61,323 bases of DNA from an uncultured Mycoplasma sp. (GTDB taxonomy: Bacteria > Bacillota_I > Bacilli_A > Mycoplasmatales > Metamycoplasmataceae): NCBI GenBank assembly GCA_947039505.1, contig CAMQYZ010000003.1:111323-172645 (forward strand), given 5' to 3'. A model generated the notes under the pieces. The model saw nothing but the letters and a program-made list of their open reading frames with translations, searched no databases and was not told the origin of the DNA. The position numbers were made by a program, and so were the translations under genes. Below are positions 6,165 through 48,416 of this stretch, one piece after another (position 1 is the first letter of the stretch; every line of letters starts with the position of its first letter).

Positions 6165-8021
6165 TTATTTCTCTAAATACATTTTAATAATAATATTTTT
6201 TCTGGCAATTAGAAATTTCAAATAATTATTTTGATTTAAACCTTCATCAATTATATTTTCATATGATTTCTCCAATTGGTGGGCTAAATTTTGATAGTTG
6301 CTTTTTGCTCATTTATAAATTCTGTCACAATAAATATTCTCAATTTCTATCGAAGCTGATTTGTGATTATTTTCTGCATCTAAAATCAAAGATAAATTAG
6401 CAAATGAAGTTACTCCTGTTTCAATACCTCGTTCTTCTAATTTAGACTTTGGTATTAAATGATCATTATGAAAAAATTGTTTATCATTTTCAGTAATATT
6501 GATATCTCTCATGAATAAATATGCCATTAAAGTACAAGCTTTATTATCAAAGGTATTTTTTCTTGCTTTCTTTAAGCTGTTCTCATAAAACTCTTCTATT
6601 TTTCTTTCCAGTGCACTATCAGTTAAAGAAACTAAATAATGACCTTCATTAATTGAAATAAAAGCTTTCTTAGATGAACTTGAACCAAATGTTCCTGATA
6701 ATAAATCGAAAATATAATGCTTGATAAAAAGATCGCGATATTGTTTCACAAAATTTTCATCACTAATTTGATTAGTATATATAAATTTATAAATATTTCC
6801 GAGAATGACAATTGAATAAGTTTTTTCAGGTAAAAAAGTGCTTGAGTTATTGGTTTTTTTATTACCCTTATAAAATGAAAAGGAATTAAATATAATATCA
6901 AATAACTTCACAGTCCTATATAAACGTTCAATTATTTGGTCAACATCTTCCTTGCTTTTAATTAAATCTTTAAATCTTTGTCCAATTTCTTCATCTTCAA
7001 AATCTGAATTTTTTTTAGAATCACCTTGTTCATTTGATAAATTTAAGGAAATATGAAGTTTAATTAAATTTATCAAAGAAGCAAGACCTGTGATAATCTT
7101 ATCTGATTCATTTGATTTACTATTCTTTTTTCCTGAAAAAACTTTTGAAATGTGATGATTTCAATTTTTTGAAAATAATTCTTCAAAGATATATCAAATA
7201 ACATCAAATGGAGAAAGCACATCAACCCTTTCGTGTTCAATGCCAAAGGAATCATCCAAGATAGAATTAAAGCTTTGATTTATTTTATTTGTGATTTTGA
7301 CATCAGAAAAATTCATTTCAATTGTTGATCATTTACTTTTTCAAATATCTGAATTTTCCAATTTAGTTCCTTGTTTATTAATTAATTCAAATAAATGGGC
7401 TGTTTCTTCAACTGTACCATCAAACCTTATGAAAGGTAGGCTATATTCATTTATGCCCAATTTTTCCGAAGCCATTTCATGAATATTTTTTAAAATTGCT
7501 TCTATAAATAAAGCTTCAAAACCTTTGTTAATATGTTGAATTGATTTAATATGCTTTTGACAAAAAGACTTTGCAAATAAATCAGATTTTCTCGGATTTG
7601 CTAATTCAATTTTAATACGAATATTATCTGATATAAAAGTTTCCAATGACTTAAAATCATTTTTCTCAATTGCTTGACTATATTGAGGATATTCTTTGTT
7701 CAAAAGTTTAATTGTTTTTGAAATAATGTCCTTCAATGTTTTTGGTTTCATATTTTCAAACATATTATTGAAAATACCCATAATTGTTGTTGTTCTTTGC
7801 AAACCATCAATAATGTATTTTTGATTATTGGTATCTGAAAATAAAATCACTCCTACAGGATAACCATTCATTAGTGAATCTTGTAATTTTTGTTTTTGAT
7901 CTGGCTTTCAAACAAGTTTTCTTTGAATTCTAGGAATTTGTAAAACTCCTGTTTGATATTCATTAATTAATTCATCAATTGTTATTGAACCATATTTATA
8001 TTTTTCGTTTTTCATAGACAT
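6165..8021 (-). CDS. DUF262-HNH protein, GmrSD-like restriction endonuclease
   Basis: A 618-residue protein. The N-terminus has the DUF262 (ParB/Srx-like) signature QIPRIQRKLVW and the nucleotide-pocket motif IDGLQRTTTI, where the usual DGQQR has become DGLQR. The C-terminus carries an HNH-like block, HNDHLIPKSKLEERG...ANLSLILDAENNHKSA. This is the GmrSD layout: modification-dependent (type IV) restriction of glucosylated or otherwise modified phage DNA. The start ATG at 8021 follows GAGGTG; a second ATG six bases on is possible. It is divergent from the DUF1524-type gene at 8240, with a 218-base promoter region between them. Several TGA-coded Trp residues sit in the central region. Confidence 0.8.
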
Positions 8022-8239
8022 TTTCACCTCGTGTATTAAAAATTATCGCACATTCTGCGTTTTTGTCAATATTTTCTCTATTTTCCTAGATTTTTTCTAT
8101 ATAAATTGATTAATTATCAACAATAAAATATGCATTTCTTACAATGAAAAAAGGTCTAAATATAACTTAAAAAATATTAATTCTTCTATATTTGAAATAT
8201 AATTTATTCTCACATAAAAAAGAACTATAGGTAAACTAA

Positions 8240-9883
8240 ATGAAAAAAATCAAACTTAAAGATTGGGATATAAAATTAGGAAATTATGGAAAAATGTTGT
8301 GCAAAATTAATAAAGAAGACTTTAATATAATATTTGATAATTTCAACAAAAACATATATGATATAAAATCATTTATATTTAATTTAAAAAAAGAAGAAAA
8401 GCACATTATTGAGTTTCATAAAAAGATTTATGGAATCGAACTATTAAGTTCTCCTAATTTATTGATAAACATTTCTTTAATATATAGATTTTTAACCATA
8501 AGTCATTATTCTTGACTGGAAAAAAATCTTTCAAAAGAAAAGTGATATAAAAACAATGATTTAATTCTCTTATGAAACAAAATAACCAATAGATCTGTTT
8601 TATTATCTTTAAAAATTGATGATGATTATTCTCATTGAAACAGATTAGTTGATTCTCCAATGACAGGAATATTTAATATTAATGATGAGTTAAGTAAAAT
8701 TAATGCCATATGATATGCAATTAACTATTATGAAATAGATGAAATAAATGAATTTGTTGATTTTTTGGAAAATATAGAAATTGATGTTGAATTTATAAAT
8801 GAAGTTAATAAAAATTGATTTAAAAATCTTTCCAAAGAATATAAATTACTTGAATTTAAAAACTGTTTTTTATATTTAAAAAATGTTTATAATTCAAATC
8901 CAGAAATATTGAAAATTGTTTCAATTCTTGAGGAAATAAATATGAAATTTGATATTAATTTTTTCTTCAGTTTTATATCTCAAAATTATAATTGAAATTA
9001 TATGTCAAAAAATGAAGAAAAATTATCTGCCGATCTTATAAACTGATTTCAAAACTTTGGTACTTTAGATAACATAAAATTTCTTCACACTGAAATTAAT
9101 GATCACTTTTTCTTTTATAATAGAATAAAATTAAAATCATTAAACTCATCTTTCTTATTTAATTCATATATTTTAGACACTTGTTATTATATGTATAACA
9201 ATATTTTAAAAAGAATAATTGATTATGATGAAGAGGCATTCAATCTTTTTGTAGATGTTTTATTTATATTTGATTTATATATAACATTTGATAATGAAAA
9301 TAATTTTAAAAGAATAAAGCGATTTAAAACATCATTATATGATGAATTTACTGAATTTATGGAAAACATGAGAAATCCAAATATGATGAAAAAGATATTT
9401 AGTGAATTATTGCCAAAATTATTTAATTCAAATGCATATTCAAATTTAGAAATTAAAATGAGATCTAAACAAATTTTATTTATATACGAAAACTTATTAG
9501 CTTTAAATAATTCAGAAATGCATATAAAAACTATAAAAAACAATATCAATATAGAACATTTATTGCCACAAAATGATAAACAAAATAATTATAAAATAAA
9601 CAAATATATGAAAAACAAAGTTGTTAATTATATAGGTAATTTATTTTTAATTGATATAAATATAAATAAAGAGTTAAAAAATAAGTCATTCAATGATAAA
9701 AAGGTAATCTTAAAAGAAAATACTGATTTTTCAATTAAAGAAATTTTAGATCTTGAAAAATGAAATGATACAGCTATCAAAAATAGGAGTAAAAAGATAT
9801 GGAATACAATATTTAATTATATTCAAGCTGATATTAAAATTTCACAAAATAGTTTTATTGACAATAAAAATAATAAATTATAA
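8240..9883 (+). CDS. DUF1524 (GmrSD C-terminal, HNH) domain protein
   Basis: A 547-residue protein whose last 120 residues are clearly DUF1524: NIEHLLPQND, then VNYIGNLFLIDININKEL and NKSFNDKK, ending with a W..T.I..RS..I.N.I pattern. In GmrSD enzymes this domain is the HNH nuclease that cuts modified DNA. The first 420 residues are unfamiliar, rich in Asn/Lys/Ile and with many TGA-coded Trp. They probably replace the DUF262 half, which is supplied by the divergent gene at 8021 or is absent. The gene ends one base before the end of the convergent endonuclease gene at 9885. Confidence 0.72.
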
Positions 9884-9884
9884 T

Positions 9885-11099
9885 CTATTTATTGCACTTG
9901 TTAACTTTTCAATATTCATAGTTTTCACTAATATATTTCATTCTTTCTGAAGAATTCAGTATATCTTTAATAGGTTCATTTAATAAAATTTTTCCGTCCA
10001 AGTCAATTATTTTTCCTTCTGTGGTAAAAGTGATTGTGTTGTTATCAAACGATGTATGTATATTAGGAGACAGTCTTAAACAATTAAATGGGTCTGCTGA
10101 TTTAAATAATGATTCATCATTTTGGTTTTTAAAAAGTGATTTTTTAGAAATAATATGAGCATTTTCAGGATTAGGATGATTATCTATTAAACAGTATGAT
10201 AGTTTTTTTTCCTTTATAAGAGTTCTAACTCCGTAATTATAAATACTGGTTAATTTGCTTTTAATTTGCTTTTCAGATAAATCAACATACTTAAAACTTT
10301 GAATCATTTGCCTTAAATCTTCCTGGATATTTTTGACAGATATGTTTTTTTTAACTTCTTTTTGTTTTTTGTTTTTTAAAGGTAATTTGAGATTTTTATT
10401 TTCAAAATTATCCTTATATTCTTTATTAGCTCCATCTACAAGAATTCTATGAGAATTAATATCCTGAAAAACTTCAAAAGTATCTAATGTTAAGTGCACT
10501 TTCTTTATAACTACATCAATCTTGTTGTACTTTTCAAAATACTCTTTCAAAGTTATTATTTTTAAATCATAAAGATTATTAATATTTATTTTAGATTTTT
10601 TATAAAATTTATTTAATGGATTTGCAAAATTATATTTTAAATATTCATTATCCAAGGACATAAGTGGTGTTAATAGTGGATTTTTTTCAGCCCCCGTAGA
10701 ATTACTGCCCATAATTAAAGAAGATTGAGTTAATACCGGGGAATCATTTGATATAAAAAAAACATTTATTAATTCTATTTGCTCTTTAGATAATGTTTTA
10801 CGAGGTGATTTTTTCGTAAAATCACTGGGATTATGATTTATTCCATCTAAATATTTTGTTCTAAAGTCTTTTTTTCACTTAATTCTATAAAAATCAGTTC
10901 CAACTTTGGCATCATCATGAACCAAAACTGCCATTTCAAAATCTGTTTGACGATATTCTCCCTCAATAATTTGAATAAATTGTTTATTTATTATTCCATT
11001 GTCATCAAAAACATAATATGCATAACCCTTTAAAGAACATCCACCATATTTTTTATTTAAATATTTTTTTGTCGAGAACATTATCTTAATTGCTTTCAT
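9885..11099 (-). CDS. Type II restriction endonuclease, HNH type
   Basis: About 404 residues, starting 2 bases after the stop of the C5 methyltransferase, so it is almost certainly its cognate nuclease. Near the C-terminus is an HNH arrangement: LSYCLIDNHPNPENAHIISK, then DPFNCLRLSPNIHTSFDNN. The N-terminus (KYLNKKYGGCSLKGYAYYVFD) has no known motif and may hold target recognition. No convincing ribosome site of its own precedes the ATG, so translation is probably coupled to the methyltransferase. That would switch the nuclease off when the methyltransferase frame is off. Reading the TGA at 9909-9911 as Trp adds 7 residues before TAG. Confidence 0.75.
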
Positions 11100-11101
11100 A
11101 A

Positions 11102-12305
11102 TTAAAACACCAACGTTCTAAAGATTTCTTCAAGAATTGGAATAACAATTGAATTACCTGCTAAATAAAGTTGTTTGTTTGGTTTCACAAGATTTGTCTT
11201 AAGAACCTTATCAAAGTCCTTATCACTAAATCCCATATATCTAAAAGCCTCTCTTGGAGTCATTGTTCTTATTTGATTTTTTTCATAATATAACTTTATT
11301 CTTGAAAGAGCCCCTGATGCAGTTAATGTTGAACCATTATAATTAATATCAAAAACCATATTTTCACTTGAAAAATTAGTATAGTTTTCTAACTTATATT
11401 TTCGAACATTACCATTTCTAGTTGATGGTCCTGATAAACGATATTTATTGAACTTTTCTTCAAAAGGAACATTATCTTCCAAAATCTTTTTAATTGGTAC
11501 AACCCCCAAGGTTTTTTGAGGATCTCTAAATTTGAAATTAACTTTGGTTTTGTGAGTTTTAAGCACCGAAAGAACAAAGACTCTTTCTCTTGCTTGTGCC
11601 ATCCCAAAATCTTTGGAATTCAGAATGTATTCTTTTGATTCATAACCTAGTTTATCTAAACGATCAAGTCACTTTTGATATTCAGCATGATGATTCTTAT
11701 TAACCATTGCTTTCACATTTTCTAATAATAAATACTTTGGCATTTCACTTGCCAAAAATATTTTTTTAGCTCCAGAAATTATGCGATCAATTTCTCATAA
11801 TAAACCTGAACGAGTATTGGCATTTTTTTCCATCCCTTTTCCTTTTCCTTGACCTGATAAATCTTGACAAGGAAAAGAATAGGTAAAAATATCAATATTT
11901 TTCGGTAGGTCTTTTGGACCTACCTTTGTAATATCAAAAAGGTTTTTTGATAGATTTTTTGATTGATTCAATCAAAAAGCTGTTTCACTATTTTCAAAAA
12001 ACTTTTTTTGTGCTTGAATCGATAAAGGTTTTTTTGAATCAGCACTTATATTAACGTCGCCTGTAAACGTTTCTTTTTTTATAGTTTTCAGGGGGGGGGG
12101 GGTCGTTGTGAATAGCCTCGTATGCGATGATGGCGTCGATAAACCATTCCACAATACCAACAACTTCAATATCTCAGTTCATAACCTTAGAAATGTTCTT
12201 TAGAGCCATATGTTGGGAACCAATTCCTGCAAAAGCTTCAAACAAATTAATCTTTGTCTTTTTAATAGGTGATTTTTCTAAAGATTTTGATGGATTTATT
12301 TTCAT
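11102..12305 (-). CDS. DNA cytosine-C5 methyltransferase, phase-variable, out of frame here
   Basis: All C5-methyltransferase landmarks are present: NLFEAFAGIGSQHMAL (motif I), SFPCQDLSGQG with the catalytic Cys (IV), LLLENVKAM (VI), MAQARERVFVL (VIII) and YLAGNSIVIPIL (X). The frame is broken at a run of 12 C on the coding strand between motif I and the rest. Upstream codons reach IHND and then run into PPPPENYKKRN with an early stop. The conserved remainder needs 11 or 14 C. As written, the product stops at about 80 residues. A run this long in such AT-rich DNA is a typical slippage site, so I call the gene phase-variable and OFF in this assembly rather than dead. The HNH endonuclease follows in the same operon. 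Confidence 0.85.
12091..12102. repeat. Poly-G tract (12 G on plus strand), phase-variation switch
   Basis: Twelve consecutive G (C on the coding strand of the methyltransferase). It lies inside the coding region after codon 67. With 12 bases the two halves of the methyltransferase are in different frames; 11 or 14 would join them. Strand slippage in such tracts switches many mycoplasma surface and restriction genes on and off. Confidence 0.9.
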
Positions 12306-12556: not shown

Positions 12557-12586
12557 CTAATTAAGAAAATTAAAGGATTGGTGCAT

Positions 12587-13327
12587 ATGATTAAACAAAT
12601 ATTCCTAGGATTAGGATTATCAATTGGTATTACATTCCCTCTTGCAATTGTATCTTGTAGTTCCGGAGAACAAGTTGTTGAAGAAAACGTATTAACAGCG
12701 GAAGTTACTAATAGTTTTTTTGCTACTGGTGGTAAATGAGAAGGAAAAACTTCTTTAGTTGCTCAAGATTTTAAGGGATTTACTTCTATTGGCTCTGATG
12801 CTTTTCAAGGTCGTATTCAATTATATAGCGTTGATTTACCTAATGAAATAATTAGAATTGAAGATCAAGCTTTTTTTCAAGCAGAATTAAGATATGTTAC
12901 TTTAGGTAACAGAGTTCAACATATAGGGAATCAAGCTTTTTCTCATTGTCATATAACAGAAATTATTTTGCCTCCTAGTTTAAAAACTATGGATGAAGGT
13001 GCTTTTGCACAAAATGAACTTACAAGCATTATCATTCCTTCATCTTTAAAACGTATTCCTGATTTAGCATTTAAAACAAACAAAATAAAAAGCGCAACTA
13101 TTCCTAACTCTATAACTCATATAGGGAATGGTGCTTTTGAAGATAATAATTTAAAAGCAATTGATATTCCTAATTCAGTAATATCTATCGGTTCACTTGC
13201 ATTTGCTCATAATTCTTTTTTAGCAATCCCTTCTTTACCAAATGGTATTCCTATTGGTGATATTTTTGATAATAACCAACGTCCAAATCCAAATATAGAA
13301 ATATACACCAGAAAATTCACAAAATAG
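12587..13327 (+). CDS. BspA-like leucine-rich-repeat lipoprotein 1
   Basis: A 246-residue surface lipoprotein. It has a hydrophobic signal peptide ending in the lipobox AIVSC (lipidated Cys at 25), then a module shared by the whole locus (FFATGGKW.GKTSLVAQDF), and then LRR_5/BspA repeats of about 23 residues: IIIPSSLKRIPDLAF, TIPNSITHIGNGAF, DIPNSVISIGSLAF. These repeats form a solenoid used in adhesion or host binding. The C-terminal tail (GDIFDNNQ...EIYTRKFTK) recurs in paralogues. The Shine-Dalgarno sequence is AAAGGATTGG. One TGA in GGKW is Trp. It is the smallest intact member and has no spacer module. Confidence 0.85.
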
Positions 13328-13509
13328 TTATTTCTTGAATTTCATGATGCAAAGTTTCCTTGAAATATTAACTATGAAAAAATATTAATGTTTTTTTCTT
13401 CTTTCGCGTCATATTGTAATAAATATTTTTTAATTCTTAAGAAGAGATATTTCAGGATTTTTAACTTGAATTTTATTTATATTTTAATAATAAAATAATT
13501 TACTAAATT

Positions 13510-13700
13510 TATGTTTATCAATTGATATTGCATTATCTCTTTTGAAATTTTGGAGAAGGAATTATTCAAGACAACGTATTGACAAGTAGAAGTTACTAAT
13601 CTTTTTTGCTACTGACAGTAAAATTGAAAAAGAAAAACAACCTTAGTTGTTCAAAACTTTGAAAGATTTACTTCTATTAGTAATTTTGGTTTAAGTTAAA
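13510..13700 (+). pseudogene. Decayed BspA-like lipoprotein copy
   Basis: Fragments align with the start of the lipoprotein genes: a run resembling the signal peptide, GGAGAAGGAATTATTCAAGA followed by an ACGTATTGACA.CAGAAGTTACTAAT-like segment, the CTTTTTTGCTACTG segment encoding FFAT.G, and a remnant of the VAQDFKGFTSI module. Frames shift repeatedly and stops interrupt all of them. The rest of the 13328-13950 gap shows no gene I can support. Confidence 0.65.
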
Positions 13701-13950
13701 ATTTTTAGTAAGTTTTATTTTCCCTAATTCAGAAATATTCTAAATATTCTATTGTTTTTATTTTGTCCTCATTACTTTCGTTGAACTTGAGGCATTTAAG
13801 ATTGTTACCAATTCAGCAATTGTAGACAACAACCGAACATCATACAGATCTCCATTAAGTTACTTTTCAGTAATAAGTAATATAAATTTTTACCAGTAAA
13901 GTTTATCTGATAGTATTTATATTGTAATTGGGTTTTGTATATTCAGTTTC

Positions 13951-15243
13951 TTATTTATTTAATATTTGTTTGATTTTTTTTGTACTTAATCACATAAGGT
14001 TTTCTTGAGATTGACTATTTGCAATAAAGGTCATTCCATTTGTGAAATCAAGATTTTCCCTATGACTAAGCATAATTAAAAGTTCAGGCGAATTATCTCG
14101 CTCTGCATAAAAATTAAGTTGAATGTCTATGCGAGTTGACATTGTATTTGCATTTTTTCATGTTGCCTTAAACACAGAGTTTCCCACACTATTTAGTTCA
14201 ATCATTGATAATAGTTTTTCAATATTATTAAGTTCTTCTTGATTCACTACTTCAATAATAATTTTTCTACCCCCTGCTTTTGTTTTAGCTAAGTTATAAG
14301 ATTCTTGAATTTCATCATAAATGGGTTTTAAAAGATAATTTTTGAACTTGTCATTTTTAACACGCTCTCCTCATTGTATATCAGGATTAACATTTCTAAA
14401 TCCTTTAATTGTAAGGTTAGAATTGTGGGTTGCATCAGTTCCACGCTTGGTAATTATGAGATCTAAGTTAACTCAACCCTCACCTGTGTGTGGTGTGTCT
14501 AATGATTGGTCTGGTTCTTGAATATCAAGCATATAATCAAATCCATCTGGAAGGGTTATTGGTTGAATTGGGTTGATAACTTTGAACAATAATTCTTTTC
14601 TTTTTTCTTGCTCGTTAAACGACGATATGGCATAATAAAACTCTGCTGCTGTACTTTTTTTAACGGCACTAAGAGATGTGTCGATATTAAAACCATTTTT
14701 AAATATTTTTGTTGCAGGGGAAAAACCATCCTCATTCACAGTCAAAGTTATGTTTGGAGAATGTATTTCAGTAACAGTTACATTATTAGTATTTGAAAAT
14801 TCATAACCATCTTTTGGCATTAAGGTTAATGTTGTGTGTCTATCAAATTTGGTCTTGTAGAACTCCAAACCATTAATTAGATTAGGATTTAGATTTTCAT
14901 GATCTATCTTTCCCATGTCAAAATAATTATTTAATATGAATATGTTGCCCTCATCTATTTGATAATTTATTCCTTCTTCAAATTGATCTAAATCACTTTC
15001 ATGTAGTTCTGATGTTTGAATAATTCGCGGTTCCACATCAACCTTAATAACTCCTACTACCGGTGGTTTTGGGTCTGGTGTTGGTTTTTGATCTATTTCT
15101 GGGTTAATTGGTACATCTGGTTCAACTATTACTTCATTATTTGATGAATAAGCAATTCCTATTGGTAATCCTATCGCTAATCCTGATGCCGTTACACCAG
15201 CGGTTATTGAAATTGCTACTTTTAACATTTTGTCTATTATCAT
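13951..15243 (-). CDS. Exported proline-rich surface protein
   Basis: A 430-residue protein with an N-terminal hydrophobic helix (ISITAGVTASGLAIGLPIGI) that acts as a signal or membrane anchor and has no lipobox Cys. A linker rich in Pro (DQKPTPDPKPPVVG) is followed by an acidic extracellular region with strand-like repeats. I recognise no named domain. The start ATG follows AAGGAGATCTATA, a strong Shine-Dalgarno sequence. It is the only gene on this strand within the lipoprotein cluster, and decayed lipoprotein copies lie on both sides. Two or more TGA codons are read as Trp (after HTGEG, and in W.S.KKIKQ). Confidence 0.7.
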
Positions 15244-15339
15244 TATAGATCTCCTTAAAAAATTTTATTTATTTCTATTAAAAGATATCACATTTTATTA
15301 AAAAATATTACATTTTGAACTAAAAATGAGCAAAGTGCT

Positions 15340-15739
15340 TTTACTTAATAATCAATTAATATCATTAAATATTCCTAAATTAGGGTTATTGAAATCGGTG
15401 ATGGAGCATTTACTAATAATTAGCTAACAATAGATTCACGAGTTAAATTACCTACACAATTTGATAATCTAACAGAAGGTAAAAGGATTGGTTGACCTTT
15501 TGTTACTCTGCAAATTGAACCGCCAATTACAGGTAATGTATCGACATAACTTGTTGGTACTTTTCTTTGTCAAAGGTGTAATGTGATATACAAAAACTTC
15601 TTTAGTTGCTCAAAATTTTATTTCATTAATTCTTTCTTTATTAATACCCAATAATATTCATGTTAGTAATATTTTCAATAACCAACGACCAAATCCAAAT
15701 ATAGATATAGAAATATATACAAGAAAAACATTAAAATAG
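15340..15739 (+). pseudogene. Decayed BspA-like lipoprotein copy
   Basis: A scrambled remnant of a lipoprotein gene. It keeps the segment encoding IEIGDGAF, a TTPAQFDN-like stretch, GRIGWPF, then VAQNF, and finally the tail NIFNNQRPNPNIDIEIYTRKT with a TAG. Frameshifts and stops prevent translation. It lies directly upstream of the promoter of the large lipoprotein gene. The remaining bases of the 15244-15997 gap hold no other recognisable gene. Confidence 0.7.
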
Positions 15740-15933
15740 TTATTTCTTGAATTTCGTGATATAAATTTTCCTGAAATATTAACTATGAAGAAAAATTAAT
15801 GCTTTTTTCTTATTTCTAAATATTTTTTAATTCTTAATAAGAAGAAACATTTAAGGTTTTTTAACTTGAATTTTATTTGTAATTTTTAACTCAAAATCCC
15901 AAATATTAATAAATCATAATAATCTATTTGTTT

Positions 15934-15961
15934 TTGACTTTATTTATGTTTTTAGTATAAA
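15934..15961 (+). promoter_or_regulatory. Promoter of large lipoprotein gene
   Basis: TTGACT, 16 bases, TATAAA, followed by a TATATAAGGATTGG leader and the ATG at 15998. This is the closest match to a sigma-A promoter in the lipoprotein cluster. Confidence 0.65.
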
Positions 15962-15997
15962 ATAATGTAATAAAATTATATATAAGGATTGGTGCAC

Positions 15998-18739
15998 ATG
16001 ATTAAAACAAATAAAGTATTATTAGGATTAGGTTTGTCAACCGCCGCCGCATTACCTCTTGTAATTGTATCTTGTAGTTCTGGAGAAGAAGTTATTGAAG
16101 ACAACGTATTGACAACAGAAGTTACTAATAATTTTTTTGCTACTGGTGGTAAGTGAGAAGGAAAAACAGCTTTAGTGGCAGCAGATTTTGAAGGTTTTGA
16201 AAACATTGGCAATTCTGCTTTGAGTGGTAAATCTTTAGTTAGCGTTATTTTCTCTGATTCAATAACTAAAATTGGGCAAAATGCTTTGGCAAATAATGCA
16301 TTAACATCATTAAACATTCCAAATAGTGTTATTGAAATCGGTGATGGAGCATTTAACGATAATCCATCGTTAACAATAGATTCACCAATTACATTGCCTG
16401 CACAATTTGATACTCTTGAAGAACGAAGAAGAATTGGTTTACCTTTTGAACAACCAGCAATAAACTTAGAATTAACTCCTAAGACAAATATTGAAGCAAT
16501 TATGGAAAGTGAAGTAGCACATCTTACTGAAGTAGATCAAAATGTTAATGCTGCTTCACTAGCATTAATCAAAAAGCTTTTTGATATTAATGTAACAAAT
16601 GATGAAAATTTAACTAATGGATTAAAAATTAAAATGGTAACAGATGGATTAAACAAAACAATTTCATTAACTACTATTGAAGGTTTTACAATTAATGGAA
16701 CTTTAAATACAATCGATTCAACAAGCTTTACAATTGATATTCCGCCAATTGATCCACCAATTACAGGCAATGTATTAACAGAAGAACTTGTTAGAAGTTT
16801 TTTTGCTACTGGTGGTAAGTGAGCAGAAAAAACGGCTTTAGTGGCAGCAGATTTTGAAGGATTTACTTCTATTGCTGATTCTGCTTTGAGTGGTAAATCT
16901 TTAGTTAGCGTTATTTTCTCTGATTCAATAACTAAAATTGGGCAAAATGCTTTGGCAAATAATGCATTAACATCATTAAACATTCCAAATAGTGTTATTG
17001 AAATCGGTGATGGAGCATTTAACGATAATCCATCGTTAACAATAGATTCACCAATTACATTGCCTGCACAATTTGATACTCTTGAAGAACGAAGAAGAAT
17101 TGGTTTACCTTTTGAACAACCAGCAATAAACTTAGAATTAACTCCTAAGACAAATATTGAAGCAATTATGGAAAGTGAAGTAGCACATCTTACTGAAGTA
17201 GATCAAAATGTTAATGCTGCTTCACTAGCATTAATCAAAAAGCTTTTTGATATTAATGTAACAAATGATGAAAATTTAACTAATGGATTAAAAATTAAAA
17301 TGGTAACAGATGGATTAAACAAAACAATTTCATTAACTACTATTGAAGGTTTTACAATTAATGGAACTTTAAATACAATCGATTCAACAAGCTTTACAAT
17401 TGATATTCCGCCAATTGATCCACCAATTACAGGCAATGTATTAACAGAAGAACTTGTTAGAAGTTTTTTTGCTACTGGTGGTAAGTGAGCAGAAAAAACG
17501 GCTTTAGTGGCAGCAGATTTTGAAGGATTTACTTCTATTGCTGATTCTGCTTTGAGTGGTAAATCTTTAGTTAGCGTTATTTTCTCTGATTCAATAACTA
17601 AAATTGGGCAAAATGCTTTGGCAAATAATGCATTAACATCATTAAACATTCCAAATAGTGTTATTGAAATCGGTGATGGAGCATTTAACGATAATCCATC
17701 GTTAACAATAGATTCACCAATTACATTGCCTGCACAATTTGATACTCTTGAAGAACGAAGAAGAATTGGTTTACCTTTTGAACAACCAGCAATAAACTTA
17801 GAATTAACTCCTAAGACAAATATTGAAGCAATTATGGAAAGTGAAGTAGCACATCTTACTGAAGTAGATCAAAATGTTAATGCTGCTTCACTAGCATTAA
17901 TCAAAAAGCTTTTTGATATTAATGTAACAAATGATGAAAATTTAACTAATGGATTAAAAATTAAAATGGTAACAGATGGATTAAACAAAACAATTTCATT
18001 AACTACTATTGAAGGTTTTACAATTAATGGAACTTTAAATACAATCGATTCAACAAGCTTTACAATTGATATTCCGCCAATTGATCCACCAATTACAGGC
18101 AATGTATTAACAGAAGAACTTGTTAGAAGTTTTTTTGCTACTGGTGGTAAGTGAGCAGAAAAAACGGCTTTAGTGGCAGCAGATTTTGAAGGCTTTACTT
18201 CTATTGGTGAAAATGCTTTTCAAGGTCTTAATAATTTATCTAGCGTTGACCTACCTAATGAAATAATTAGAATTGAAAATCAAGCATTTTTTCAAACACA
18301 TTTAACACACATTACTTTAGGAAATGGAGTTCAACATATAGGTGATAGTGCTTTTTCTCATTGCTTTATCACAGAAATTATTTTGCCATCTAGTTTAAAA
18401 ACTATGGGCGAACAAGCTTTTTCACAAAACAATCTGACAAACATTATCATTCCTTCATCTTTAAAAATCATTCCTAATATAGCATTTACATATAATAAAT
18501 TAACATCAATAACTATTCCTAATTCAGTAACTCATATTGGTGATGGTGCTTTTTTTGATAACGAACTAACAGAAGTTAACATTCCTGACTCTGTAACATC
18601 TATTGGATCAACGGCATTTCAATATAATCGTTTTGCGATAATTCCTACTTTACCAAACGGAATTCTTGTTGGCGATATTTTTGATAATCAAAAAGTAAAT
18701 CCATCTTTGGAAATATATACAAGAAAAACCATCAAATAA
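15998..18739 (+). CDS. BspA-like lipoprotein 2 with three identical 222-residue repeats
   Basis: A 913-residue lipoprotein, in one frame once the TGA in each GGKW is read as Trp. It has a signal peptide with lipobox VIVSC, then three copies of a 222-residue module. Each module has FFATGGKW.KTALVAADFEGF, LRR_5 repeats (SITKIGQNALANN, SLNIPNSVIEIGDGAF), and a spacer beginning NLELTPKTNIEAIMESEVAHL and ending PPIDPPITGN. The last quarter is a long LRR_5 domain with the IYTRKTIK tail. The modules are identical at DNA level over almost two full periods, so copy number can change by recombination or slippage and alter antigen length. The Shine-Dalgarno sequence is AAGGATTGG. Confidence 0.88.
16214..18191 (+). 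repeat. 666-bp tandem repeat, about 2.97 copies, virtually identical
   Basis: Sequence 16214-17525 appears to recur unchanged as 16880-18191, a shift of exactly 666 bases (222 codons), as far as I can compare by eye. Divergence appears only before 16214 and at 18191-18192. Such identity without silent changes points to recent amplification, or homogenisation, of a surface-protein module. Confidence 0.88.
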
Positions 18740-18790
18740 ATTTTTACTATATTTAATAATCCAAAAGTTTGTTTAAAATAGATTTATTTT

Positions 18791-18819
18791 TTGGTTTTTT
18801 ATCTATATTTTATTATAAA
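18791..18819 (+). promoter_or_regulatory. Promoter of lipoprotein 3
   Basis: TTGGTT, 17 bases, TATAAA within a leader shared with the other lipoprotein genes (TTTTTATCTATATTTTA.TATAAAAT), 31 bases before the ATG at 18851. The Shine-Dalgarno sequence is AAAAGGATTGGTG. Confidence 0.6.
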
Positions 18820-18850
18820 ATAATTAAGAAAATTAAAAGGATTGGTGAAC

Positions 18851-19918
18851 ATGATTAAAACAAATAAACTTTTATTAGGATTAGGTTTATCAACTGTAGT
18901 AGGATTACCTCTTATGATAGTATCTTGTAGTTCTGGAGATGAAATTACAATCACTAATTTAGAATTAACACCTAAAACAAATATTGGGATAATTACAGAA
19001 AATGAAGTTGCTAAACTTAATAACAATTATCAAAATGTTAATGATAGTTCATTAACATTAATCAAAAAGCTTTTTGATATTCAAGGAACAACAACTGACC
19101 AAAATTTAATTAGTGGTTTACAAATTAAATTGTTATCAAATGAACTAAACAAAACAATCTCATTAAATGTTAATAATGGTTTTAAAATTAATGGAAATTT
19201 AACTAAAATTGATTCCATGAATTTTGTCATTAATGGTCCAGTTATTCCGCCAATTGATCCACCAATTACAGGTAATATATTAACAGAAGAACTTGTTAGA
19301 AGTTTTTTTGCTACTGGTGGTAAGTGAGCAGAAAAAACGGCTTTAGTGGCAGCAGATTTTGAAGGCTTTACTTCTATTGGTGAAAATGCTTTTCAAGGTC
19401 TTAATAATTTATCTAGCGTTGACCTACCTAATGAAATAATTAGAATTGAAAATCAAGCATTTTTTCAAACACATTTAACACACATTACTTTAGGAAATGG
19501 AGTTCAACATATAGGTGATAGTGCTTTTTCTCATTGCTTTATCACAGAAATTATTTTGCCATCTAGTTTAAAAACTATGGGCGAACAAGCTTTTTCACAA
19601 AACAATCTGACAAACATTATCATTCCTTCATCTTTAAAAATCATTCCTAATATAGCATTTACATATAATAAATTAACATCAATAACTATTCCTAATTCAG
19701 TAACTCATATTGGTGATGGTGCTTTTTTTGATAACGAACTAACAGAAGTTAACATTCCTGACTCTGTAACATCTATTGGATCAACGGCATTTCAATATAA
19801 TCGTTTTGCGATAATTCCTACTTTACCAAACGGAATTCTTGTTGGCGATATTTTTGATAATCAAAAAAATTCAATATCAAATAAAAAAATATCAAATAAT
19901 ACAAATAATATGTACTAA
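18851..19918 (+). CDS. BspA-like lipoprotein 3, altered C-terminus
   Basis: A 355-residue lipoprotein with lipobox MIVSC. One spacer module (NLELTPKTNIGIITENEV...INGNLTKID) comes first, then FFATGGKWAEKTALVAADF and the LRR_5 domain. From about 19280 to 19865 the DNA matches the last domain of the preceding gene (shifted by 1173 bases), apparently without a change, which suggests gene conversion or recent duplication. Identity ends at GDIFDNQK. After that the normal tail is replaced by NSISNKKISNNTNNMY and a TAA, so the 3' end is a recombination or deletion scar. The promoter and AAAAGGATTGG leader are intact. Confidence 0.85.
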
Positions 19919-20038
19919 TAAACCTTTTTATTATTTAATTCTCAAACAACATAATCAAGTTCAAAAATTTGATGTGTTTGGTGATTATAAAAAATTGATT
20001 TACTTAGAATTTAAAACCATTTTAGCAAAAAAACAATA

Positions 20039-20067
20039 TTGTTTTTTTATCTATATTTTAGTATAAA
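20039..20067 (+). promoter_or_regulatory. Promoter of lipoprotein 4
   Basis: TTGTTT, 17 bases, TATAAA, 31 bases before the ATG at 20099, with the shared leader and Shine-Dalgarno sequence TAAAGGATTAGTG. Confidence 0.6.
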
Positions 20068-20098
20068 ATATTTAATGAAAATTAAAGGATTAGTGAAC

Positions 20099-21964
20099 AT
20101 GATTAAAACGAATAAACTTTCATTAAAATTAGGCTTATCAACTATAATAGCATTGCCTCTTATGATAGTATCTTGTGATTCTGATGAAAAAATTACCATC
20201 ACTAATTTAGAATTATCTCCTAAAACAAATATTGGAATAATTTTGGAAAGTGAAGTAGCACATCTTAGTGAAGTTTATCAAAATGTTAATGATCATTCAT
20301 TAGCATTAATTAAAAAGCTTTTTGATATTCAAGGGACAACAACTGACCAAAATTTGATGAATGGTTTGCAAATTAAGATGGTATCAAATGGATTAAATAA
20401 AACAATTTTATTAAGTGTTAATATCTGATTAAATAACAGTAATGGCTTTAAAATTAATGGTAATTTAACTAGAATTAATTCAAATAATTTTACCATTGAT
20501 ACTCCTCCAGTTTTAGGTGATATATTAACAGAAGAACTTGTTAGAAGTTTTTTTGCTACTGGTGGTAAATGAGCAGGAAAAACAACTTTAGTGGCAACAG
20601 ATTTTGAAGGATTTACTTCTATTGCCAATTCTGCTTTAAGTGGTCAATCTTTAGTTAGTGTTATTTTCTCTGATTCAATAACTAAAATTGGGCAAGGTGC
20701 TTTGGCAAATAATGCATTAACATCATTGAATATTCCAAATAGTGTTATTGAAATCGGTGATGGAGCATTTGCAAATAATCAACTAACAATAGATTCACCA
20801 ATTACATTGCCTGCACAATTTGATAATCCATTGGAGCGCGAAAGAATTGGTTTACCTTTTGAACAACCAGCAATAAACTTAGAATTATCTCCTAAGACAA
20901 ATATTGAAGCAATTGCGGAAAATGAAGTAGCACATCTTAGTGAAATTAATCAAAATGTTGATGATCGTTCATTAGCATTAATTAAAAAGCTTTTTGATAT
21001 CCAAGGGATAGAAACAACTGAGCAAAATTTAATGGATGGTTTGCGAATTAGAATAGTATCAAATGGATTAGATAAAACAGTTTGATTAACTACTAATGAT
21101 GGTTTTAAAATTAATGGTAATTTAACTGAAATTAATTCCATGAGTTTTGTCATTGATACTCCACCAGTTTTAGGTGATATATTAACAGCAGAAATTGCTA
21201 ATAGTTTTTTTGCCGTTGGTGGTAAGTGAGCAGGAAAAACAGCTTTAGTGGCAACGGATTTTGAAGGATTTACTTCCATTGGCGATAGTGCTTTTCAAGA
21301 TCTTTCTCATTTATCTAGCGTTGACCTACATGATAAAATAATTAGAATTGAGGATCGAGCATTTTATCAAACAAATTTAAGACACATTACTTTAGGCAAG
21401 GGGGTTGAACACATAGGATTCGAGGCATTTTCTCGTTGCTCTATAAATAAAATTATTTTGCCATCTAGTTTAAAAACTATGGGTGAAGAAGCTTTTTCAG
21501 AAAACAATCTGACAAACATTATCATTCCTTCATCTTTAAAAATTATCTCTATTGGAGCATTTTTATCAAATAAATTAACATCAGTAATTATTCCTGATAC
21601 AATAACTGAAATTGGAGAATATGCTTTTCTTATTAATAATTTAACACAAATTAACATTCCTGACTCTGTGGTTTCAATTGGTCATAGTGCATTTGCTGTT
21701 AATAGTTTATCTGGAGAATTGGATTTACATGATTTGATAAACTTAGAAAGTATTGAATCAAATGCATTTCGTTTTAACAAAATATCATCCATTATTTGAC
21801 CAACCAATAGTAAAATAAACAGTATTGGATTAGAAGCTTTTGGTTTAAATAATTTTGGAACAAGTATCCCAAACTTTCCACCCGGATTAACTACAGAAAC
21901 TAACGGTGGAATTTCTCCAGAACAAATATTTACTAATAGAGGGCGAAAATTTTTCTTATCTTAA
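20099..21964 (+). CDS. BspA-like lipoprotein 4
   Basis: A 621-residue lipoprotein with lipobox MIVSC. Module order is spacer, LRR block (FFATGGKWAGKTTLVATDF), spacer, then a longer C-terminal LRR_5 domain with an ending not shared by the others (LSGELDLHDLINLESIESNAF, then GLNNFGTSIPNFPPG, last residues RKFFLS). The spacers are diverged versions of the NLEL.PKTNI module, so this gene is an older relative of the neighbouring gene with identical repeats. Five TGA codons (ISVNIW, GGKW twice, TVW, SSIIW) are Trp in one continuous frame. An upstream GTG/ATG alternative near 20039 lacks a Shine-Dalgarno sequence; the ATG at 20099 is preferred. Confidence 0.85.
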
Positions 21965-22217
21965 CTATATTAATAAATTATAAATATTTTTCAAATTCAA
22001 TAATACAAAAGTTTTTTTATACTAATCATTATAAAAAAAATACTTAATGATTCGACTTCTTTTCTAACATGTCATAATTCCATTAATCTTAATTTTATTT
22101 GTGATTTTGATTTAAAATATTGAATTTTAACAAATTTATAACAATAGATTTGTTTTTTCGTTTTTTATCTATATTTTAGTGTAGAATATTTATAGAAAAT
22201 TAATAGGATTAGTGAAC

Positions 22218-23249
22218 ATGATTAAAACAAATAAACTTTTACTAGGATTAGGTTTGTCAACTGTAGTTGCTTTACCTCTTGTAATAGCATCTTGCAAATC
22301 TAATGAAACACCAATTTTAGACAATGAATTAACGACAGAAGTTGCTAATAGTTTTTTTTATGGTGGTAAATGAGATGGTAAAACTTCTTTAGTTGCACAA
22401 GATTTTGAAGAATTTAAAACTATTGATGATTCTGCTTTAAGAGGTAAGGGTTTGGTTAGTGTTAGTTTACATCATTCAATAACTAGCATTGGAGAAAATG
22501 CTTTTGACAACAATTTATTAACATCATTGAATATTCCTAATAGTGTTATTGAAATTGGTGATGACGCATTTGTGAATAATCAACTAACAATAGATTCATC
22601 AATTACATTACCTGCACAATTTGATACTCCTAAAGAACGAAGAAGAATTGGTTTACCTTTTGAAATCATTAACTTAGAATTAACTCCTAAAACAAGTATT
22701 GAGACAATTGTTGAAAGTGAAGTTGCACATCTTAATGAAATTGGTCAAGATGTTGATGATCGTTCATTAGCATTAATTAAAAAACTTTTTGAAATTCAAG
22801 GGACAACAATTGAAAAAAATTTAATGGATGGTTTACAAATCAAAATATTGTCAAATGGTGTAAATAAAACAATTTTATTAAGTGCCAAAAATGATTTTAA
22901 AATTAATGGTGATTTAACTGAAATTAATTCAATGAGTTTTATTGCATTAATTAACTTAGAATTGAGCCGAAAAACCAATATTGGATTAATTATGGAAAGT
23001 GAAGTGATACACCTTAATGAAAATTATCAGGATGTTGATGATCGTTCATTAGCATTAATTAAAAAACTTTTTGGAATTCAAGGGACAACAACTGAGCAAA
23101 ATTTAATGGATGGTTTGAAAATCAAAATGTTGTCAAATGGTGTAAATAAAATAGTTTATATAGAAGTTAAGGAAGGGTTTATAATTAATGGTGATTTAAA
23201 TAATGAAGATTCAGAAGCGTTTATTATTAAGATTCCACCCAATCATTAA
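22218..23249 (+). CDS. BspA-like lipoprotein 5, truncated by frameshift
   Basis: A 343-residue lipoprotein with lipobox VIASC, the module FFYGGKWDGKTSLVAQDFEEF, LRR repeats (SITSIGENAF, SLNIPNSVIEIGDDAF), and two spacer modules (NLELTPKTSIETIVESEVAHL and NLELSRKTNIGLIMESEV). The frame ends at PPNH with TAA. One base earlier in register, the DNA continues as SLTKEIASGFFDGGKWKNKTSFVAQNF, the expected start of a further LRR module. The gene is therefore a 3'-truncated version of a longer ancestor. The leader matches the others, but the -10 region is weaker (TAGAAT). Confidence 0.8.
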
Positions 23250-27902: not shown

Positions 27903-29603
27903 CTATTTCAATAATAAATTAGTAAATTTATCCACAAAATCTGCATCTGTGTAACTAATATCTTTTTCACTTTCAATTACTTTAACAAATTCTTTTCAAA
28001 GTTTTTTGTTTTCTTTTTTAATTTCTAATCAATTATTTTTAACGTTTTCAAAATTATCTTTTGTTTCTTTTATTGATGAAATGGTTGTTAAAATTTCAGA
28101 CCTGTCCTTTTGATAATCATCAATTGACTCTTTTTTCTTTTTTAATTCATCATTTCTTATAGAAAAATTATTTTCTGCTTCTAATTTTTGTTGTTTATCT
28201 ATTTTGAGAGTTCTTTCCAATAAAGCTAATTTGTCAGAATTTATCATATCAGTATCAGATTGACTTTTTTGTGATTCATCCTTGTATTTCTTATCACTTT
28301 TATTTATTTTCTTTTCTAAAGTTTTTATTTTTTTAGTCAAGGAATTTACGCTTTCATTCAACAAAGCAATATCTTGATTAACTAATTCAATATTTTCATC
28401 AATTACTTTTATTTCTTCCTCTAAATTAATACAAATACCTTCTCAAGAGATAGATCAACTATAAAGTACATTAGCATGCCAACTGAAGATATAGTTTATT
28501 TTTTTTACATAATATTCATCACCATACTTTAGGGTAATTATCAATTTTTCATCCAGTTCCATTATTATTTTTTTAATTTCATCAAAATATTTTCCCATTT
28601 TATTCAAAACATCTATAAAATTATTTAAATCATTTTCTATATATTTTTCAACAACATCTCTTGAACCTCATATTTTATTTGTAAAAGTAGAAAGCATTAG
28701 ATACTCATCTTCTTTACTCTTTTTTAATAAATTATTAGCTTTTAATCTTTTTTCAATTTCTCTAATAGACAATTTTGTATTATCAATTTCATAATTTAAA
28801 AAATTATTAAGATATTCTGAAATTTCAACAGAAAAACCCATATTTATTAGTAACCCTAAATAGTCTTGACTAAATTTAATATATTTAATATCAATGTATT
28901 TTTCAAAAAAAGATTCTTGAGAATGTTCGGAAATAGATTTATTTAGCATTTTTTGATGCATAGGTAAAACAAATAAAAAATGATCTCTTTCAGATAATCT
29001 TCAAATACTCTTCAAAACTTCCCACGCATCTTTTCCTAATCTTTCAATATTGTCTATAAAAACTATTGTTCTTTCAAAATTAGTAAAACATTTAGATAAT
29101 TCATCATAATCAATAAACATTTTATTATTTTTCTTATCTATATATTCATCAATCACAAAAGCCATTCGAGGTTCAATGCTTTTCATAGCTAAGACAAAAG
29201 CATTTATTAAATCAGTTGGGATGTTTTTAGAAGTTGAGTATTTTCAGCCATCCAAAAATATAATTTTTTTGAAGAATCTAATATCTTTATTTTTATTAAA
29301 ATACTTAATAATTCTTTCTACAAAATAAGTTTTACCAGTTCCTCAAGGGGCATCTATAATAGTTATAGGAGATTGTTTGGTAATATTTTCAGATTCAAAA
29401 TATATTTCTTCTTTATTTATTTCTTCTTTTTTTCACTCTTCACACTTTGATTCTCTAGAAGATTCAAATTTTATAACCTCTTCTTTCATTATTTCAAAAA
29501 ACTTAGAGCAAGCTAAATCAAAATCATCGTCATTTCCATTGGTGATTTTGATTTCTTCAAACAAACCTTTTTTTATAATTATATTTCTTTTTTCTAGTTC
29601 CAT
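27903..29603 (-). CDS. KAP-family P-loop NTPase with C-terminal coiled coil
   Basis: A 566-residue KAP-type NTPase. Walker A is IDAPWGTGKT (about residues 83-92), the KAP-typical FLDGWKY follows, and Walker B is RTIVFIDNIER (179-188). The C-terminal 170 residues are a lysine/glutamate-rich coiled coil (KKIKTLEKKINKSDKKY). Unlike many KAP proteins I see no membrane segments between the Walker motifs. It begins 3 bases after the stop of the TIR-domain gene and is its operon partner. KAP NTPases act as oligomerising switches in several defence and signalling systems, so it probably controls or senses for the TIR effector. No TAA or TAG interrupts; four or more TGA are Trp. Confidence 0.78.
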
Positions 29604-29606
29604 ATT

Positions 29607-30284
29607 TTAACTTTCCAATCAAACAATATACTCAATCAAAAACTCTTTTCTTGAATTATTAATTTCATATTTTTGCTTTCAACTTAAATTTTTTAAGTGT
29701 TCTATTTTTTCAAGTTTTATTTTTGAAATAATTTTTAATTCATTAGTTAAAAAATTAATAGTTGCATTGTAAATTTTACTAGAATTTCACTCGACTTCCT
29801 CTTTATCTTGAATTTTTTTTAAAATTTCTAAAATTATGCTTTTTTCTTCAATATTTTTATTCAAACTTTTAAAAATTAAATCATTTGTAGAAAATGATGC
29901 AATCAACTTATCTACAACAATTGCAATTCCATCATTTAAATCTATATATAAATAATCGCTAGGTATACAAGAGTGGGTATCAACACTGTTTGTTTTCACT
30001 TCTATTATTTTGATTCTTTGTTTTTTTAGAGCCTTTATTGCGATATGCAATTCTTTTCAACAAGTAGCTGAATCTAAGTATGATTTAGAATTAAAGAAAA
30101 TAAAAAAACTACTATCATTAATTCTATTTGTGATATCAACTCAATAGCTTTCGCCATATTTTAAAGTTTCAACATCTAAAAAAACCTTATTTTTATAATT
30201 AATATTTTCATTTAATAAATCATATATTTGTTTAACTAAATCTTTTTCGTGTTTTTCTTTGTGGCAATAACTTAAAAATATCAT
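29607..30284 (-). CDS. TIR-domain protein, probable NADase effector
   Basis: A 225-residue protein whose first 115 residues form a TIR domain: MIFLSYCHKEKHEKDL, KVFLDVETLKYGESYWVDI, IFFNSKSYLDS, and CWKEL with the catalytic Glu at residue 78. Bacterial TIR domains of this type cleave NAD+ or make cyclic ADP-ribose signals when phage is sensed, causing cell death or dormancy. The C-terminal half is mostly helical with no known motif. It is the first gene of a two-gene operon with the KAP NTPase (3-base gap), and is divergent from an EVE-HNH gene. TGA-coded Trp residues occur within the TIR core. Confidence 0.82.
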
Positions 30285-33844: not shown

Positions 33845-36274
33845 ATGTCAAACCAAGAAGAATCAATCCTTAATTATTTTAAAGAATTAGCTGCTTTTGA
33901 AGACCAAGAATCACACAAAGCATCTTTACTAAACGAACAAAAGTCTAAATCATGAATCAATGTTTATGAAAAAGTTAAAATCAAACCACATTCTGTTCTC
34001 AAAAAATATCTAAACCCAAACATAACTCTTGAACCACATCACAATAATAGTAGTAAGATATTCCCCTTTGGTGCCAACACTTCTCAAATAAGTGCTGTTG
34101 CTAATGCCCTAGACAACCAAATAAGCATTATAGAAGGTCCTCCAGGAACCGGAAAGACACAAACAATATTAAATATCATTGCTAACTTATTAATCAGGAA
34201 TAAGAGTGTGCTTATTATTTCCAACAATAATAAAGCAATTGAAAACATCAAAGATAAAATGGAAGAATATGGTTTGGATTTTTTAATTGCCTTTTTAGGT
34301 AATAAAGAAAATAAAGAAAAATTTTTAGCAACACAAATTACAAAATATCCTCAAGATATTTTAAATTGAAATTTTAGAATGAAAAAACGCAACTATTTAA
34401 ACGAAACTTTAGAAGAGTTAAAAGAAATTTTTATCAAGAAAGAAATAATTGCTAAAACAACTCATGAATTGAATGAATTAAAATTAGAGTTTTCATATTT
34501 TAAAGATATTTACCATGATACAACAACTTTTGCCGATCAATTTAGCAAATTATCTTCGAAAAAATTAATGTCTTTGATTAATATTTATGACAACATACTT
34601 AGAAAAAATAAGGGCAAAAGAATTTCTTTATTAACCAAGATAAAAATCTACTGAAAATATCAATTAAAAATTTATCAATTCCAAGATTCTAATGCCTTAA
34701 AGTTTCTCTTTTATCAAAATAAAATCAAAGAATTGACAGAAATCATTACAACCAATGAAAAATGATTATTACTTCATGATGAAAAAACAATCTCAAATCA
34801 ATTTTATGGTGATTCTTTAAAGGTTTTAAAAAAGAATCTTTTCTTAAAATACAATACAAATGAACCAAGAAAACAATTTGAAGAAGAAGATTTGTGACAA
34901 GATGGTAAGTCAGAAGCTTTTATCAAGGAATATCCCATAGTTCTGAGCACTACTCATTCAGCATTTGGTGCATTAAATAGTAAGTTTGATTTTGATTATG
35001 TCATTATGGATGAAGCTTCACAAGTTAGAGCATTTAATACCTTGCCAATTCTTTCAAGAACTAAAAACTTAGTAGTTGTTGGTGATACCAAACAACTACA
35101 AGATATTAATGAACATAAAGAAGAAGGAAATAAAATATTTCAAAAGTATCGAACAAATGTTGATGATTTTTATAATGATTCTGCTAACAACTTCCTTGCT
35201 TCAATTGCTAAAAGTAATCCCAAAATTAAAAGAGTTATTCTAAAAGAACATTATCGTTGTCATCCACAAATAATTAATTTTTGTAATAAAAAATTCTATA
35301 ATAATGAACTCATAATCATGACCAAAGATCATGGAGAAAAAAATGTTCTTGAACTGCAAGAAACAATTAAGGGAAATCATGCTGATTGATCCAAAGTTTT
35401 AGGAACCTTTAATCCTCGAGAAATCGAGACAATAAAATTAATTTTAAAAGATGATTACTTTGCTAATTTAGCAAAAGATAAAATCGGCATCATTTCTCCT
35501 TATAGAAGACAATGTAATGAAATCACCAAAGAATTAAATGGGGAAATTGAAGCTATCTCTACTGTTCATAAAATGCAAGGAAATGAAAAGGATGCCATTA
35601 TCTTTTCCACTGCAGCAAACTATATTAATAACTTTGTCAACAACCCCGAGTTAATCAATGTCGCTATTTCGCGAGCTAAGGAAAAATTTATTTTAGTGAC
35701 TAATGGTAATAAACAACAATCAAAAACAAAAAAAACTAATAATATCGAAGATCTTATTGAATATATTAAATATATCAATAAGGATCATATGAATGAAGAA
35801 ATCAGGGTTGAATCAATATTTGATTTATTATATTCTCAATATAAAGAAGAGCGTAAGAAGTTCCTCAAAAACACTACTAAAATTTCTAGATATGATTCCG
35901 AAAATATCTTTAATGTACTTCTTAGTGAAGTGATCAAAGATTATCAATTTTTAGATATTGCTTTTCAATATCCTTTAAAGTTATTAATTAAAAATAAAGA
36001 TCTCTTAAAACCATTTCCTGACCTTATGAAATTTGCTGCTAATAATTGGACTCATCTTGATTTTATTGTTTATAACAAAATAACAAAGAGACCAATCTTA
36101 GCCATTGAAGTTGATGGATACTCAACTCATGCTAAAGATTCAAAACAAATAGTTAGAGATACTAAAAAGGACAAGATATTAGACTTGTATGATTTTCCTT
36201 TATTAAGATTAAGTACTAAGGGCTCACAAGAGAATATCAAGATAAGAGAAATGCTTGATAAAATTTTGTTTTAA
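33845..36274 (+). CDS. SF1 DNA2/UPF1-type helicase with C-terminal DUF2726 nuclease domain
   Basis: An 809-residue SF1 helicase. Walker A is IIEGPPGTGKTQT (residues about 95-107), motif II VIMDEASQV, motif III VVVGDTKQLQD, a CHPQIINFCN turn, motif V STVHKMQGNEKDAIIFS and motif VI INVAISRAKEKF. The C-terminus (HLDFIVYN, AIEVDGYSTHAKD, RDTKKDKILDLYDFPLLRL) is DUF2726, a Vsr/PD-(D/E)xK-like nuclease. Helicase-nuclease fusions of this type are common in defence islands and resemble the DUF2726 helicases near BREX/Zorya-like loci, but a stand-alone role is possible. At least six TGA are Trp; one TGG is used. A decayed copy of its 3' end lies at 37615-37775. Confidence 0.82.
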
Positions 36275-36480: not shown

Positions 36481-37185
36481 ATGAAAATAACCACGAAACA
36501 AAAAGAATCTTTAATAAACAAAATATACAATAAATTATCAGAAAGTGATAGCGAAAAGGGGTTTCCTGTTTTAGCTGCCACAATAGACAAACCCCATAAC
36601 AAAAATATCGTTGTACAAAACAAAAAAGATAAAAATAAAATGAAAGACAACAAAATAGAAACAGATATAAATAATCATGCAGAAATTATTTTATTAAAAG
36701 AAATACAAGAAAATAAAATAGAAATTGATTTTATCTTAATAACATTACCTCCTTGCTTTAATTGTTGAGAAAAAATAAAAGAATATATTCAAGAAAATAA
36801 TATAAAAATATTTTTCTTGACGGATGTTAGAGGCAAGAAAGACGAACGAAAATACCTCAAAGAAAATGATTATATTAACCACTTAAAATGAACAGAATTA
36901 AATCGAAATACTGACTTTACTTTGAAAACCAACTTTATAATAATGAGTTGTATTTTTGGTTTTATGAATCATAAAAAACCATCTAAAAATCCAACAAAAA
37001 TATTGGAATTTGCAAAACAAGAATTAAAAAAACTTAAGTTAGTTATAGATGATTTAAAAATTAAAAAAAATGAAATACAAGATGAACAATTACAAAGTAT
37101 GATTGATAAAACTAGAAGAATTAAAATTAAAAATATAACAATTAAAAATGCTAAAAAAGATAGAGAATTTTATTGAATTACCTAA
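36481..37185 (+). CDS. Cytidine-deaminase-fold protein
   Basis: A 234-residue protein with the zinc signature of the deaminase fold: NHAE (H66, E68) and TLPPCFNC (C92, C95). The N-terminus fits a substrate pocket (AATIDKPHN...). The C-terminal third is a lysine-rich helix (KKLKLVIDDLKIKKNEIQ) that is not part of the enzyme fold. Deaminases of nucleotides protect some bacteria by depleting dCTP during infection, and others edit bases, so a defence role fits this location but the substrate is unknown. A second member is at 44683-45429. The start ATG follows GAGGGTTTCTT. Confidence 0.75.
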
Positions 37186-42082: not shown

Positions 42083-42106
42083 AATTTCCTTTATATTTTA
42101 AGAGTG

Positions 42107-47139: not shown

Positions 47140-47178
47140 GATTTTCTCCAATCATATCCAAATTTTTATCATTGAATT

Positions 47179-48321: not shown

Positions 48322-48326
48322 TCAAC

Positions 48327-48359: not shown

Positions 48360-48416
48360 ATACAAAGAAAAAATGCTAATTATAGATTAAATAAATAATT
48401 GGCACTTGGAGGAATC

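Follow-up and report, generated by a model that had tools for sequence, protein, structure and literature searches.

A C5-methyltransferase gene on the minus strand is interrupted by a homopolymer tract and is followed by a gene for an HNH nuclease. The window (the whole stretch of DNA that was analysed, 61,323 nucleotides) belongs to an AT-rich, mycoplasma-like genome of 804 kb in 8 contigs, in which TGA is read as tryptophan (translation table 4). The features of the locus are as follows.

9885-11099, minus strand: HNH nuclease, putative restriction endonuclease of the MAG4270 family, 404 aa (PF13391, E=7e-6; NF045952)
11102-12100, minus strand: 332-aa back part of the C5-methyltransferase, containing the catalytic PCQ motif and the target recognition domain; its register differs from that of the front part
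12051-12305, minus strand: reading frame as assembled, a truncated product of 84 aa with 12 C, without the catalytic PCQ motif
12091-12102: poly-G tract and slippage site, 12 G on the plus strand and 12 C in the coding strand
12103-12305, minus strand: front part of the C5-methyltransferase, 67 aa, with motif I (FEAFAGIGSQ) and motif II

The tract is the sole run of at least 8 G or C within the 61-kb window (24.5% G+C), and its length is a count from one metagenome assembly, where a 12-base run is liable to error and a single base determines whether the gene is ON or OFF. Translation with table 4 gave a product of 84 codons that ends at a stop at 12051. The front part matched NCBIfam NF045953 (E=6e-20) and residues 9-59 of M.MpeI (E=3e-16), and the back part matched PF00145 (E=9e-51) and M.MpeI residues 74-390 (4DKJ/8C56, E=2e-84); by these matches both parts belong to an M.MpeI/M.SssI-type C5-methyltransferase. 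No lesion other than the tract was found in the gene, and the repeat whose length sets the frame lies within the coding sequence, ahead of the catalytic motif. The first-pass annotation had proposed that a 12-G tract splits a C5-methyltransferase whose frame 11 or 14 bases would restore. The split was confirmed from the letters and reading frames, and the two halves were found to be in the same frame only where the length of the tract is 2 mod 3 (8, 11, 14), in agreement with the lengths proposed. The tract, the broken register and the gene order can be read directly from the letters, as can downstream parts that are intact and appear to be under purifying selection.

About 1e-6 runs of at least 12 G or C would be expected in the window by chance. 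The genome was searched by pattern and by protein, and for runs of at least 9 the expectation over 804 kb was 0.009, assuming independent bases, against 2 observed, both within C5-methyltransferase genes. The second run is of 10 G (contig C3:59305-59314; L001:1501-1510, L090:5306-5315) and lies in a C5-methyltransferase of 428 aa that is in frame (ON) and overlaps a MAG4270-family protein by 11 nt. One of the genome's two tracts of at least 9 is accordingly OFF (12) and the other ON (10). The homologue of the second tract gene in a sister genome (L080) has G10 and is out of frame.

The nearest orthologues of the window gene, in two sister species, carry 11 C (back part 94% identical) and 14 C (83%), and both are out of register; tract length thus differs among related genomes (12, 11 and 14 C), the comparison being one of three sister species, not of strains of one species. 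Within the sister genomes, a third group of methyltransferases shows an in-frame G11 and an out-of-frame G9, and the type III mod gene of one such genome (L079:4783-4791, G004) is put out of frame by C9. The other tracts of at least 9 in the genus all come from a single genome; they fall in the signal peptide of a lipoprotein, ahead of a membrane protein and close to where a PTS-like gene starts. Two tracts of 9 in genome G010 (L085:303-311 and L087:408-416), in a lipoprotein signal peptide and at a PTS-like transporter start, are both in frame. In the single species pair that was compared, the window and the 94% sister, both OFF, dN/dS was 0.13 for the back part, 0.33 for the front part and 0.19 for the nuclease. 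Since the gene is OFF in both assemblies and yet under purifying selection, it has presumably been ON often enough to be kept.

Two observations concern the partnership of the two genes. Against one sister species dS was 0.21 for the methyltransferase back part vs 0.065 for the nuclease, and against another the methyltransferase was 84% identical and the nuclease only 35% (L083, L089, window 9885-12305). The histories of the two genes appear to differ, as if nuclease genes had been exchanged.

Related methyltransferases were collected from 135 genomes of the mycoplasma family by profile scoring on six frames. Homologues with a repeat tract were split in 42 cases and in frame in 6 (n=48), and those without a tract were split in 3 and intact in 53 (n=56), giving a Fisher p of 8e-19 that serves as a guide and not as an exact probability, the rows being related. 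One of the three tractless split genes has G6 where its sisters have G9. The repeat unit may be G, C, GA, CT or CA, and the tract follows motif I in some genes and motif II in others, or else precedes the PCQ codons by 54-128 nt. When tract state was placed on a tree, 11 changes were needed, at least 7 of them forced by well-supported branches. Split genes were offset by +1 in 26 cases and by +2 in 16. Tracts in frame were rarer than one in three (6/48, p=0.002), also with close relatives collapsed (4/32, p=0.013). This excess of OFF genes may be due to culture selection, to a cost of methylation or to assembly bias in mononucleotide runs, but its main carriers are the dinucleotide tracts (GA, CT and CA; 33/37 split, 4/37 in frame), in which one-base errors are less likely. 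As far as genome sequences can indicate, such tracts have evolved recurrently in mycoplasmas and are common, mostly OFF and accompanied by intact nuclease genes; the same sequences show that tract lengths differ among relatives and that tracts and split genes occur together time and again.

The nuclease scored 107.4 bits against NF045952, about twice the cut-off of 53. All 36 abutting proteins scanned at loci with and without tracts (36/36) belonged to the MAG4270 family, and in these 36 sequences the HNH residue N339 was invariant and H315 and H348 nearly so. The full-length nuclease model matched the PDB through its HNH part only, which superposed on VcaM4I with Z 9.9 (124 residues, 5.6 A) and on TagI with Z 7.9 (103 residues, 3.3 A). 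The N-terminal domain (residues 1-199, window 10503-11099) was modelled with confidence (pLDDT 86, pTM 0.84); over its approximately 195 residues no convincing match was obtained in the PDB structure comparisons made, a result that excludes nothing. The nuclease ATG (11099) lies 2 bases past the methyltransferase stop (11104-11102), and no Shine-Dalgarno-like 4-mer precedes it. This arrangement had been singled out in the first-pass annotation and was indeed seen, but such a 4-mer is absent from 17/24 long genes of the window, the nuclease included. With only 7/24 having one, its absence was rejected as evidence of coupling. An abutting or overlapping downstream reading frame (-32 to +12 nt) was found at 47/48 tract loci, and an abutting gene at 51/54 tractless loci; since the arrangement is equally tight without a tract, the abutting nuclease was rejected as a tract-linked feature. 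A promoter scan returned hits no more numerous than in shuffles.

The window as a whole (1-61323) is a dense defence island, and the following systems were recognised in it.

6165-9883: GmrSD-like proteins
27903-30284: KAP NTPase with a TIR protein
33845-36274: helicase with DUF2726
39191-44119: type III restriction-modification system
45490-47172: AIPR
47179-49736 and 53483-55913: two further C5-methyltransferases with MutH-type or HNH partners

Within the island, the genes at 36481-37185 and 44683-45429 each encode a protein with HAE and PCxxC motifs resembling those of deaminases, and the product of the former matches the cytidine deaminase family (PF00383, E=5e-6). A BspA-like leucine-rich-repeat lipoprotein gene at 15989-18739 contains about three near-identical tandem units of ~666 bp and has related lipoprotein genes beside it (12578-23249); the cluster is likely a surface repertoire driven by recombination. 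Near the contig end, at 58218-58448 and 58841-59101, lie scraps similar to the C5-methyltransferase and HNH genes found at 53483-55913; they are apparently a decayed duplicate.

The locus is best explained as a predicted operon of type II-like restriction-modification, in which the gene of a MAG4270-family HNH nuclease lies behind that of an M.MpeI/M.SssI-type C5-methyltransferase and the tract switches the methyltransferase by slipped-strand phase variation, OFF being the state of the majority represented by the assembly (probability about 0.87). Gain or loss of a single base during replication would move the gene between ON (2 mod 3) and OFF, and tract lengths would vary within the population. 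With 12 C, translation would stop soon after the tract and short of the catalytic PCQ motif, and no methyltransferase would be made; cells in the ON state would methylate their DNA, probably at CpG, a specificity suggested by homology. The nuclease would be translated mainly by ribosomes finishing the methyltransferase, and both enzymes would be off together. Good support for the earlier proposal, an ON/OFF slippage switch in a restriction methyltransferase that is set to OFF here, comes from the varying tract lengths among relatives and the second tract, and further from the split homologues with G, C, GA, CT or CA repeats, the low dN/dS between OFF orthologues and the switching of the M. agalactiae homologue.

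It could be argued that the true tract is in frame, with the gene ON and no switching, and that the split is a homopolymer error of sequencing or assembly. Long G runs do get miscounted, the count comes from a single metagenome assembly, and sister-genome contigs break at the tract, two of them ending close to it in the genome with 14 C. A 12-base G run here, in a genome of 24% G+C, is nevertheless beyond chance even if miscounted by one, the homologues with dinucleotide repeats are split in 33/37 cases although a one-base error is not their natural failure, and the tracts of M. agalactiae were verified by fragment length analysis (PMC9465063); an error is therefore considered unlikely. A decaying pseudogene left in the defence island would fit with the methyltransferase and nuclease scraps elsewhere in the window, but the dN/dS values of 0.13-0.33, the absence of any second lesion, the intact nuclease in the same operon and the presence of the same tract-bearing gene in sister species make decay the least probable of the alternatives weighed here.

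The best mechanistic rival is a natural two-subunit methyltransferase, whose halves would be made separately and assemble so that the split gene is active. M.MpeI cut into residues 1-61 and 62-395 regains activity in E. coli (PMC5944983), and the present tract maps to M.MpeI residues 60-73, so that split halves could in principle cooperate; the NCBIfam label of the front part is also 'N-terminal subunit'. Against this, equivalent fragments of M.SssI failed to complement (PMC5944983), split strains of M. agalactiae were without CpG methylation by bisulfite sequencing (PMC9465063), in 38/42 split genes no ATG lies anywhere from the tract to the catalytic motif (in 28 there is no ATG, GTG or TTG), 6 tract-bearing homologues are in frame, and tractless homologues are fused. 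An enzyme of the M.AquI type was disfavoured for the window gene, which has no ATG and one TTG only between the tract and PCQ. Active split halves are on this evidence very unlikely, and the same degree of improbability is assigned to programmed ribosomal or transcriptional slippage that would let the split gene yield some full-length enzyme. In favour of such recoding, slippage in transcription can occur at homopolymers, and both gene parts are under purifying selection. A fixed recoding signal was rejected because both register offsets occur and the repeat unit differs, and the unmethylated split strains of M. agalactiae also speak against recoding.

A cell that has an active type II nuclease but lacks the matching methyltransferase should die, which raises the question of how the nuclease is silenced alongside an OFF methyltransferase and makes a coupling of the two genes attractive. 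It is plausible, as the first-pass annotation proposed, that the OFF state also lowers the nuclease and so avoids self-cutting, and the abutting gene order is compatible with this; tight abutment in loci without tracts and the common lack of a ribosome site in this genome keep the lowering of the nuclease at the level of inference. Instead of being coupled, the nuclease may require the methyltransferase protein or have little activity. The nuclease may also be modification-dependent, since VcaM4I and TagI gave the best superpositions of its HNH part, TagI being modification-dependent by its entry title, and since the PDB comparisons made gave no convincing match for its N-terminal domain; such a nuclease would make the ON state suicidal, however, and modification dependence is not indicated here. 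A literature search on translational coupling in phase-variable type II systems led to one review, in whose consulted passages no such case is described. Returning to the slippage switch, a tentative extension to the whole family, for which we would give somewhat less than even odds, is that the tract throws the entire type II system, the nuclease being translated only by ribosomes finishing an in-frame methyltransferase, with OFF as the favoured state. If so, cells lacking both methylation and nuclease would become methylated and armed without cutting their own DNA.

Slippage phase variation has already been demonstrated for a poly(G) CpG methyltransferase of M. agalactiae, and the window locus belongs to that kind. 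In M. agalactiae the tract has 6-11 G, its length shifts by -2 to +1 bases among the cells of a culture, and the gene is whole and CpG methylation active in one strain only, 13377; in M. pulmonis and M. crocodyli the repeat is poly(GA) instead (PMC9465063). The window gene resembles that system in being of the M.MpeI/M.SssI type, in having a G tract between the front and catalytic parts, and in being out of frame in most genomes. It differs in its abutting nuclease, the CG motif of M. agalactiae having been stated not to be associated with any restriction-modification system (PMC9465063). Judging from locus-tag numbers, MAG4270 follows the methylase halves MAG4250 and MAG4260 in M. agalactiae PG2. 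The family survey calls the orphan status of the M. agalactiae enzyme into question. New relative to the earlier account are the nuclease and, for the family as a whole, how many tracts there are and how independent they are of one another. The automatic annotation 'N-terminal subunit' may often record the OFF state of a switch.

Unlike in most homologues, where 54-128 nt separate the tract from the PCQ codons, the tract here lies directly after motif II, at about M.MpeI residue 60 and ~230 nt before those codons. Alignment with the CG-specific enzymes M.MpeI (PDB 4DKJ, 8C56) and M.SssI is nearly full-length and includes the target recognition domain; unlike these, the window enzyme carries a tract, and its CG specificity is putative. 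With the type III mod phasevarions, among them the MmyCI mod of M. mycoides with AG repeats (PMC3498834) and the mod of Ca. M. girerdii with G8 (PMC5476646), the locus shares a slippage tract in the methyltransferase gene of a restriction-modification operon. Those systems pair an N6-adenine methyltransferase with a helicase-type nuclease. The window's own type III pair (39191-44119) has no long G or C run, and the tract-bearing locus was not assigned to the type III class, for in place of an N6-adenine methyltransferase and a ResIII helicase it pairs a cytosine-5 methyltransferase with an HNH nuclease.
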